Positions 23,290 through 26,506 of a DNA stretch of 44,593 bases are shown here, piece after piece. The translations under genes and the position numbers were made by a program. Source of the DNA: Rubricoccus marinus (lineage in GTDB: Bacteria > Bacteroidota > Rhodothermia > Rhodothermales > Rubricoccaceae); the NCBI RefSeq assembly GCF_002257665.1, contig NZ_MQWB01000001.1:2845723-2890315 (forward strand), given 5' to 3'. How positions within the stretch are numbered: the stretch's first letter is position 1; every line of letters begins with the position of its first letter. The notes under the pieces were generated by a model, which ran no database searches, was not told where the DNA came from, and was given only the letters and a program-made list of their open reading frames with translations.

Positions 23290-23413
23290 GCCCCTGGCGC
23301 CAGAGGCCGCGCGCTCTTCACCGCTTGTATGGGAGCGCTTCCGAGTGCGGGGGCGTAGGCTAGCAGCCCGTATCTTCGCCCCTCTCTCCTCCGAACCCGA
23401 ATCCCCTCCCGAA

Positions 23414-25357
23414 ATGGCCCGCGTCGATGTTGTCATGCCCAAGATGGGCGAGAGTGTCATGGAAGGCACCGTCCTCGAATGGAAAAAGGCCGTCGGTGAG
23501 ACGGTCGAGCAGGACGAGACCCTCCTCGAAATCTCGACCGACAAGGTCGATTCCGAGGTCCCGTCGCCCGCCGAGGGCCGCATCGTCGAGATCCTCGTGC
23601 AGGAGAACGACACCGTGGAGGTGGGCACGCCCATCGCCATCATCGAGACCGACGTGAACGCGCCCGCCGACGGCGGCGGAGCCTCTGGCGGAGGCGACGC
23701 GCCAGAGGCCGCCGAGCAGGCCGCTGAGCCGCTCGACGTGAGCGAGCCTGCCGCATTGGCCGAGGTGGAGCCCGCTGCCAAGCCGGCCGCGCCCATCATG
23801 CGCACCGAGGAATCCGCCGAAGCGGAGGCCGCGCCAGAGGCCTCTAGCGACGCGCCCGATCCGTCCAGCGCGCCCGCAGGCGGCGGCGTGGAAGTGGTCA
23901 TGCCCAAGATGGGCGAGAGCGTGATGGAAGGGACGGTCCTCGAATGGAAAAAGGCCGTCGGCGACGAGGTAGAGCAGGACGAGACGCTGCTGGAGATCTC
24001 GACCGACAAGGTCGACTCCGAGGTCCCGTCCCCTGCTGCCGGCACGCTTGTCCAGATCCTCGTCGAGGAGGGCGAGACCGTCGACGTGGGCACGCCCATC
24101 GCCATCATCGGCTCCGCCGTCGACGGCACCGTGCAGTCGCCCGCCTCGCCAGAGCCCACGAACGCTCACGTGTCTCCGGCGCTCTCCGAGAGCACGCCAG
24201 AGGCCGCGCCCGCTTCGGGCGACGCTCCCGAGCCCGCCGAGAAGAGCTACGGGTTCTCCGGCCAGCCCGGAGGCCCCGGTCTCGCCGAGCCCGCCCAGCA
24301 CGCCGCCTCTGGCGACGGCGACAGCGGCCCGATCCCGCGCCGCGACGACGACGGCAACTTCTACTCCCCTCTTGTCCGCTCCATCGCGGAAACCGAGGGC
24401 GTCTCGCTCTCCGAGCTTCAGAGCATCAAGGGCACGGGCTCCGACGGCCGCATCTCCAAAGCCGACGTGATGGGCTACCTGGAGACCCGGGGCGCCAGCG
24501 CGCCAGCGGCCCAGACCCCGCCCGCAGCTCAGGCCGCCCCCGCGCAGCCTACGCCCGTCGCCCCGGCCCAGCCGGCGCCAGCGGCTCCCAAGGCCGCTAC
24601 GCCCGCACCACGCCCGGCTCCCACGTCCGACGCCTCTGGCGATGGCGTGGAGGTGATGCACATGGACCGGATGCGTCAGCTGATCGCAGAGCACATGACG
24701 CGCTCGAAGTCCACGAGCGCACACGTGACCTCGTTCGCGGAGATCGATGTGACCGGCTTGGTCGCGCACCGCAACGCGCACAAAACGGAGTTCCAGAAGC
24801 GCGAGGGCGTCAAGCTGACGTACACCCCGTACTTCTTGCACGCCGCCGTGGAGCCGCTCCGCGCGCACCCGCTCCTGAACTCCTCCGTGGAGGGCAACGA
24901 GATCCACATCAAGAAGGCGTTCCACATCGGCATCGCCGTCGCGATCGGTACCAAGGGGCTTCTCGTCCCGGTCGTGCGCAACGCGGGGCAGCAGAACCTG
25001 ACCGGCCTCACGCACAACATCGCGGACCTCGCCGAGCGGACGCGGAGCAAGAAGCTCCAGCCCGACGAGCTCCAGGGCGGCACGTTCACCATCACGAACG
25101 TCGGCAGCCTCGGCAGCCTGATGGGCACGCCGATCATCAACCAGCCGCAGGTGGCCATCCTCTCCCCCGGAGCCATCGTCAAGCGGCCGGTCGTGGTCGA
25201 GGACCCGAACCTGGGCGACGTCATCGCCATCCGCCAGATGATGTACGTCTCGCTCTCCTACGATCACCGCATCATCGACGGCTCGATGGCGGCCAGCTTC
25301 CTCGCGGCTTACCGCGCGTCGCTGGAGTCCATCACGGCCGAGAGCAACCTGTTCTAA
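23414..25357 (+). CDS. Dihydrolipoamide acyltransferase (E2) of a 2-oxo acid dehydrogenase
   Basis: A 647-residue E2. Two lipoyl domains (residues ~1-77 and ~158-235) each carry EISTDKVDSEVPSP with the lipoylated Lys. An E1/E3-binding domain lies at ~316-359 (SPLVRSIAETEGVSLSELQS), and the catalytic domain at ~412-647 ends with the active site SYDHRIIDG. It transfers the acyl group to CoA. Pyruvate, 2-oxoglutarate or branched-chain specificity is not clear. All six full motif copies fall in the Ala/Pro linkers, none in a folded domain. The start at 23414 (MARVDVVMPKMGES) is canonical. No E1 or E3 gene adjoins it. Confidence 0.93.
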   Translation: MARVDVVMPKMGESVMEGTVLEWKKAVGETVEQDETLLEISTDKVDSEVPSPAEGRIVEILVQENDTVEVGTPIAIIETDVNAPADGGGASGGGDAPEAAEQAAEPLDVSEPAALAEVEPAAKPAAPIMRTEESAEAEAAPEASSDAPDPSSAPAGGGVEVVMPKMGESVMEGTVLEWKKAVGDEVEQDETLLEISTDKVDSEVPSPAAGTLVQILVEEGETVDVGTPIAIIGSAVDGTVQSPASPEPTNAHVSPALSESTPEAAPASGDAPEPAEKSYGFSGQPGGPGLAEPAQHAASGDGDSGPIPRRDDDGNFYSPLVRSIAETEGVSLSELQSIKGTGSDGRISKADVMGYLETRGASAPAAQTPPAAQAAPAQPTPVAPAQPAPAAPKAATPAPRPAPTSDASGDGVEVMHMDRMRQLIAEHMTRSKSTSAHVTSFAEIDVTGLVAHRNAHKTEFQKREGVKLTYTPYFLHAAVEPLRAHPLLNSSVEGNEIHIKKAFHIGIAVAIGTKGLLVPVVRNAGQQNLTGLTHNIADLAERTRSKKLQPDELQGGTFTITNVGSLGSLMGTPIINQPQVAILSPGAIVKRPVVVEDPNLGDVIAIRQMMYVSLSYDHRIIDGSMAASFLAAYRASLESITAESNLF

Positions 25358-25381: not shown

Positions 25382-25413
25382 GCCTCCACCCCATCCGGGT
25401 GGGGGCCTTTTTT
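25382..25413 (+). terminator. Intrinsic terminator after the E2 gene
   Basis: GCCTCCACCC pairs with GGGTGGGGGC (one T-G pair) around a 5-base loop, followed by CTTTTTTG. Confidence 0.88.
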
Positions 25414-25464: not shown

Positions 25465-25495
25465 TTGCAGGCGCCAGAGGCCCGCCCTAGCTTGG
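25465..25495 (+). promoter_or_regulatory. Possible Bacteroidota-type promoter of the recombinase-like gene
   Basis: TTG, then a 20-base spacer, then TAGCTTGG, compared with the Bacteroidota consensus TTTG-N17-23-TAnnTTTG. It lies 40 bp before the start codon at 25535. The spacer itself holds a copy of the dispersed motif. Confidence 0.35.
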
Positions 25496-25534
25496 ATAAC
25501 CGTTATTCAGCCCGGCGTACTCCGCCCCGCGCGC

Positions 25535-26506
25535 ATGGCCGACCGAGAGACCGCCTCTGGCGGGACCCATCGCCCCCTGTTCCTCACCGCCGGTGACCTC
25601 GCCGAACGCCTCCAGGGGTTCCTCACGGACTACCTCCAAGGCAAGAGCGACGCCACCATTGGCACGTACCGGCGCTCCCTCAACGAGTTCGAGCGGTACC
25701 ACGGCGCGCGCTTGGGGAGTGGCGCGCACGCGCGCTTCGGCTTCCGCGAGGACGACGTCACGGCGTACAAGCGCTACCTCATGGAGGAGCGCGAGTTGAG
25801 CCAGGTCTCGGTCTCCACCTACCTCACCGCCCTCCGCCGCCTGTGTGAGTACCTCGTCGCCAGAGGCGACCTCGCGGAAAACCCCGCCCGCGCGGTCAAG
25901 GGAAACCGCCGCCCGGGCCAGCACACCCGAGGCGTCCTGGCGCAAGAGGACGTGGAGCGCCTGCTCGACCTTATCCCGCAGGCGACGATCATCGGCCTGC
26001 GCGATCGCGCGCTCGTGAGCCTGATGATTTACGGAGGCCTCGCCGAGATCGAACTCGTCCGCTCGGACCGCGGCGACCTGGACCACACGCTCATGGGCGC
26101 CTTTCTCCGCGTGCAAGGCAAGGGTCGGCAGTCCAAGGACCAGCAGGTCCCGCTCGATCCTCTGGCGTTGGACCCGCTCGTGACCTACCTCCAGAAGCGC
26201 GAGGACACGTCGCCAGAGGCCCCGCTGTTCGTCAGCCACGGCCACCGCAGCGATGGCACGCGGCTCAACACGCGGTCCATCCGCAGCCGCATCAACGGCT
26301 ACCTCCGCGAGGCGAAGCTCAAGCGGCCGGGCATCAGCCCGCACTCGCTCACGCACACCGCGGCGCTGATCTGGCTCAACGACGGGATGGACCTCGAAGA
26401 GGTGCGGCGAAGAATGCGGCACGGCACGCTGGAAACGACCATGATCTCGTTTCGCAAGCAGGGTCTTCTTAAGCGGCCATCGTCCGAGGGCGATACCTCT
26501 GCGTAA
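25535..26506 (+). CDS. Tyrosine-recombinase-family protein lacking catalytic residues
   Basis: A 323-residue protein with the SAM-like core-binding domain (residues ~20-115) and the catalytic-fold domain (~130-310) of XerC/XerD-type integrases. The first catalytic Arg (GLR in the family) is Ala170 (YGGLAEIEL). The HxxRH box reads HSLTH, with Thr273 for Arg. The Tyr nucleophile position reads TTMISF, with no Tyr. Lys in GKGRQSKDQQVPL and His270/His296 remain. It should fold and bind DNA but not recombine, if my alignment is right. No att sites or other mobile genes adjoin. The reading frame is intact, so it is not a decaying pseudogene in the usual sense. Confidence 0.82.
   Translation: MADRETASGGTHRPLFLTAGDLAERLQGFLTDYLQGKSDATIGTYRRSLNEFERYHGARLGSGAHARFGFREDDVTAYKRYLMEERELSQVSVSTYLTALRRLCEYLVARGDLAENPARAVKGNRRPGQHTRGVLAQEDVERLLDLIPQATIIGLRDRALVSLMIYGGLAEIELVRSDRGDLDHTLMGAFLRVQGKGRQSKDQQVPLDPLALDPLVTYLQKREDTSPEAPLFVSHGHRSDGTRLNTRSIRSRINGYLREAKLKRPGISPHSLTHTAALIWLNDGMDLEEVRRRMRHGTLETTMISFRKQGLLKRPSSEGDTSA

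Follow-up and report, generated by a model that had tools for sequence, protein, structure and literature searches.

The open reading frame at positions 25535 to 26506 on the forward strand of the window, the whole 44.6-kb stretch of Rubricoccus marinus DNA that was analyzed, encodes a 323-amino-acid Xer-family protein that is very probably not a recombinase. This protein, hereafter dead Xer, probably binds an array of short, oriented sites at the chromosome terminus. We see about an even chance that the fuller picture holds, namely, that an autoregulated, catalytically dead Xer binds polar half-sites in the terminus region and most likely serves as a Tus-like fork barrier. The polar block to replication forks, taken by itself, is proposed more tentatively.

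The frame is intact from its ATG start, and domain matches, alignment, and a structural model place its product in the Xer family. Dead Xer scored 63.9 bits against the Pfam Phage_integrase model (cut-off, 27.1), and a domain search found a SAM-like domain at its N terminus. An AlphaFold model built with 58 relatives had a mean pLDDT of 92.2 and matched XerA, XerH, lambda Int, and Cre at Z scores of 18 to 20. Domains, model, and structure matches all point to a recombinase fold with core-binding and catalytic domains. Dead Xer has the fold, domain order, and sequence kinship of XerC and XerD, and its best match among solved structures was the XerD structure 1a0p, but it has lost catalytic residues and scores far below the NCBIfam equivalog cut-offs of the XerC and XerD models (121 and 105 bits compared to 335 and 330). 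It also belongs to a separate clade. The 83 family members grouped together (SH-aLRT 100) apart from XerC, XerD, an XerA-like group, and an active-looking tyrosine recombinase type, L010, although the tree program warned that long branches meet near the join of this clade. The protein is basic (pI 9.5), and the family has about a dozen conserved Arg and Lys residues of its own, mostly absent from XerC and XerD. A PADLOC search with dead Xer gave no match, and a PHROGs search gave only generic integrase. A link to the ribosome through PDB entry 9i5v was rejected, as the matched chain is an Xer domain joined to RaiA and is no close relative. In chain 14 of that entry, named RaiA, an intact-looking Xer recombinase domain precedes the RaiA part.

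Catalytic columns were set by alignment with 41 intact tyrosine recombinases. The residues R, K, H, R, and H were present in 41/41 of these references and the Tyr in 40/40 scored; therefore, residue loss in dead Xer is not family noise. Of the R-K-H-R-H/W-Y set, dead Xer lacks Arg I, Arg II, and Tyr, exactly the three losses that the initial annotation had read from the sequence. Ala170 (codon at 26042 to 26044) stands at the Arg I position, where most relatives have Ser, Thr, Ala, or Gly; Thr273 (26351 to 26353), a Thr in most of the order Rhodothermales, takes the place of Arg II in HxxR; and Ser305 (26447 to 26449), within TTMISF, occupies the position of the nucleophile. Lys196 (26120 to 26122), His270 (His II, 26342 to 26344), and His296 (His III, 26420 to 26422) align to catalytic columns and are kept, again as annotated. 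Two of the checks put forward at that time, an orthologue alignment and a structure model, gave substitutions fixed in the orthologues and a confident Xer/Cre/lambda-Int fold.

Judged from the alignment, the three losses differ in age. First, the loss of Arg I is family-wide: it was replaced in 79 of the 83 members, by Ser in 63, and the remaining four, of which three have Gln at Arg II, come from a single genus surrounded by Ser-bearing relatives in the tree. Second, the loss of Arg II is order-wide, with Thr at the position in 52 members (essentially Rhodothermales) and Arg retained in 24, almost all of them from the outgroup. Third, loss of the Tyr, which 69/83 members retain, is late and recurrent. 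The position is Ser in the query, in four members of a single genus within the same family as the query (G421 to G424), and in G418 and G096. Family f8 has decayed further, with the Lys also lost in several members. Arg I was thus probably lost first, Arg II second, and Tyr last.

The array is defined by a sharp 12-bp consensus, CCGTTATTGCAA, obtained from 36 collected sites. The CCGTTATTGCA sites cluster at the terminus, with a median distance from the center of 17 to 150 kb compared to the expected 590 to 1,200 kb or so. All of the 91 sites counted in nine genomes, sites on small contigs being left out, point to the center, + on the left and − on the right; the center was taken as the L010-type gene or, in G073, set from the sites themselves. 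In G000, for instance, the rule holds for 14/14 CCGTTATTG sites within 200 kb. Two genomes of family f12 have few, spread sites, of which 6/6 and 8/9 are oriented. In the eight genomes of the order among the nine, dnaA lies opposite the site center, at 0.47 to 0.57 of the chromosome. Each of the four centers examined (G000, G179, G030, and G073) has one dif-like 11-6-11 site, flanked at the terminus by about 5 to 15 copies of CCGTTATTGCAA. The one in G000 is at 1720998, 68 bp before an active recombinase gene, and the one in G073 is of the XerCD type. A reversed control pattern was near zero in array genomes. Strand-biased k-mers are common near the terminus, and in G179, G-rich 9-mers of this region were also strongly oriented; weight is therefore placed on clustering, orientation, and controls together, orientation alone counting for little. 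By a crude gene call, many array sites lie inside open reading frames. A de novo array search in 260 kb of the outgroup genome G005, which has a family member, gave nothing convincing.

Four plasmids or small replicons also carry single convergent pairs of sites. The Salinibacter ruber plasmids pSR61 and pSR118 each have exactly one such pair, 120 bp apart and about 2.3 kb from a replication-initiation gene in pSR61, and 235 bp apart and about 0.5 kb from one in pSR118. The pairs on G325:C5 and C10 are about 130 and 143 bp apart, and a dif-like site sought near these two was not found. A scan of pSR60 found no sites.

A related element precedes the dead-Xer gene. The heptamer CCGTTAT, a proposed operator at 25500 to 25506 on the + strand and the sole copy in the window, is the commonest 7-mer upstream of the orthologues; it was found at 49/64 Rhodothermales genes against a background rate of 2.3% for 180-bp stretches of those loci. 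It is absent upstream of the gene in families f3, f8, and f14, of which f3 and f14 nonetheless have arrays. Around it lies an imperfect palindrome, GGATAAC-C-GTTATTC (25494 to 25508), and overlapping this is TAGCTTGG (25488 to 25495, + strand), which resembles a Bacteroidota −7 box (TANNTTTG). Farther upstream, between the neighboring E2 gene and the dead-Xer gene, is a terminator-like hairpin with a T run (25382 to 25406, + strand). The hairpin and the conserved heptamer bear out the earlier suggestion that the gene has a promoter-like element of its own, but the upstream region gave no match to the sigma-70 consensus. Read by eye, the place of CCGTTAT relative to the promoter varies between families, which suggests a protein-binding site and not a promoter box. 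By its coordinates, the promoter copy breaks the replichore rule in G000, G030, and G147, which fits a role as operator better than membership in the array. The idea that CCGTTATCG copies at other genomic positions form a regulon was rejected; the 21 copies in the 20 stretches sampled lie inside long reading frames and look like coding sequence.

In the mechanism that we favor, one dead-Xer molecule would recognize the asymmetric 12-bp CCGTTATTGCAA, which by its size and TTAT start may resemble one Xer half-site. Inward-pointing sites around the dif-like site would mark the terminus for dead Xer, convergent plasmid pairs would be bound likewise (in two cases near a replication-initiation gene), and the copy in its own promoter would let the protein regulate its own level. 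Given this polarity of the sites, the bound protein would most likely interact with something moving along DNA, and it may let replication forks enter the terminus but not leave it, as Tus-Ter does. Tus is unrelated in fold to dead Xer, and Ter sequences are 23 bp compared to 12 bp for the predicted dead-Xer sites. However, the anatomy matches, in that opposed site groups flank the terminus (91/91 sites), the dead-Xer promoter itself has an element (49/64, f3, f8, and f14 being the exceptions), and two-site forms occur. All three are features of Tus-Ter as well: its sites are opposed and polar, one lies in its own promoter, and a minimal form with two sites exists (PMC8707476). On the protein side, the match is with MrpR, whose recombinase fold has lost catalytic residues and now serves a DNA-binding repressor (PMC10516654).

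This autoregulated dead-Xer fork trap of the Rhodothermales and a sister lineage could be a third independently evolved bacterial terminus system, a claim that we make with some reserve. The only fork traps known to us are Tus-Ter and RTP-Ter. The streptococcal XerDL, from a different phylum than dead Xer, is likewise an Xer homologue described as having no recombination activity, and we know of no terminus array associated with it. Our literature search found neither the dead-Xer family nor the array described, but its incomplete coverage makes this weak evidence of novelty. If the favored mechanism is true, dimer resolution and replication termination would share one protein family in an order without canonical XerD. 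The reason for the existence of fork traps is debated, and this would be an independent system for asking what they are for. The dead-Xer reading also predicts exact 12-bp sites.

An alternative with a real though clearly smaller chance is that dead Xer binds the array without arresting forks and instead has an organizing or tethering role at the terminus, or acts on the FtsK translocase by halting or guiding it. The sites are densest close to dif, the order keeps FtsK gamma nearly everywhere despite having no canonical XerD, and XerD binds FtsK gamma in the solved structure 5dcf, which is a structural match of the dead-Xer model. However, a MatP-like tether would have no need of strict polarity, and the plasmid pairs, with no dif found between them, fit a fork trap better.

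It is unlikely, though less so than some other readings, that dead Xer is a local repressor, mainly of its own gene, and that the array belongs to another protein sharing the core motif. There is a precedent in MrpR, a protein with a Y-recombinase fold in which Arg I has become Val/Ser and Arg II has also changed, with Lys and Tyr kept; MrpR binds a repeated element and has shown no recombination (PMC10516654). MrpR/YopR and SroF of SPbeta-like phages matched the dead-Xer model at Z scores of 13 to 16. Like MrpR-type regulators, dead Xer has a recombinase fold without the catalytic Arg residues; both Arg are lost in both proteins, and Lys and Tyr are kept in MrpR and in many members of the dead-Xer family. 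The likeness seen is one of structure, and the former are phage repressors whereas dead Xer is cellular, vertically inherited, and order-wide. Two observations stand against this reading. One is that, in most of the order, the element in the promoter and the motif of the array share an identical 9-bp core. The other is the distribution of the array across families. Array copies averaged 5.2 in order genomes outside f8, and 4.5 in f14, which has both the dead-Xer gene and XerCD and whose arrays surround an XerCD-type dif site. The means fell to 0.5 in f8, where the dead-Xer protein has decayed, and 0.63 in f15 to f18 and f58, families taken as lacking the gene (from the phylum sample for f15 to f18 and by assumption for f58). 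Arrays are present in f3 and G250, with no L010-type recombinase detected in either. Array counts in these groups therefore follow the dead-Xer gene rather than the active recombinase or FtsK gamma. Families f5, f12, f56, and f6 have kept the gene yet have few exact copies (means of 1.0 to 2.2).

The same distribution bears on the idea that the array is a KOPS-like guide recognized by FtsK gamma itself and has nothing to do with dead Xer. The orientation of the sites to dif on both arms would suit such a guide, but FtsK gamma was found in 230/244 genomes of the class, array-less families included, and the copy in the promoter would be left unexplained. In addition, the 10 or so copies seen here would be a low number for a guide of the KOPS type. 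We regard this reading as very unlikely.

No more likely is a continued role of dead Xer in recombination, whether it uses an Arg at another position or serves as the inactive member of a pair with an active recombinase such as L010. In IntDOT-type integrases, the first Arg is absent and another Arg is used instead (PMC8138268). Many family members retain Tyr, Lys, and His, and one distant member, G288, has the full catalytic set, the only one to do so, although it is nested among Ser-bearing relatives. On the other hand, the order also lacks Arg II, the query also lacks the Tyr, and the Tyr was lost repeatedly. No shifted Arg was seen at the presumed IntDOT-like position when the motif lines were read by eye, and a Gln lies two residues before Lys196. 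The two findings that were to overturn the initial annotation, a shifted residue and orthologues with intact sites, mostly failed to appear, G288 being the one member that comes near. A universal active partner was likewise rejected, the L010 type being present in only 63/113 genomes of the order; other genomes have an XerA-like recombinase type.

By model score, canonical XerD was found in 0/113 Rhodothermales genomes, and no XerC-type match was seen in the 21 listed in full, whereas sampled outgroup genomes had XerD and a second, XerC-like match. L010 (G000:C1:1721066-1722028) lies at the chromosome terminus opposite dnaA, and many genomes have a dif-like 11-6-11 site just upstream of it; it therefore probably resolves chromosome dimers, and it is likely that it substitutes for XerCD in part of the order. 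In each of G309, G348, G147, G195, and G325, two dnaA-family genes scored above the DnaA cut-off.

A single orthologue of dead Xer was present in 104/114 Rhodothermales genomes, and distant family members occur elsewhere in the phylum. Pairwise dN/dS values of 0.01 to 0.29 indicate purifying selection on the gene. In the order, it sits behind the gene for the 2-oxoacid dehydrogenase E2 subunit (23411 to 25357, + strand), a synteny marker outside the mechanism, and near prs, rplY, pth, and an H+-pyrophosphatase gene. No conserved partner gene emerged, since the outgroup neighbors are unrelated and mostly housekeeping genes. The missing catalytic residues might recall a decaying pseudogene or a recent mobile integrase remnant, but dN/dS well below 1, order-wide single copy, synteny with housekeeping genes, and intact frames refute this. 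The gene is best explained as a vertically inherited Xer paralogue whose product appears unable to cut DNA. The earlier view of a domesticated, Xer-derived DNA-binding protein agrees with the fixed substitutions, purifying selection, synteny, fold, and conserved basic residues, but it missed the link to the terminus.

Finally, the speculated link to a dispersed repeat was refuted. The 9-mer GCCTCTGGC/GCCAGAGGC has about 160 copies in the window (e.g., at 25552, 25860, and 27024). DNA sampled from a relative in the same genus has no copy, and there are essentially none outside this genome; the repeat was rejected as a dead-Xer target because it is lineage-specific whereas the gene is order-wide. 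It is a HIP1-like repeat, dense at other chromosomal loci of the genome and sparse or absent in some small-contig loci.
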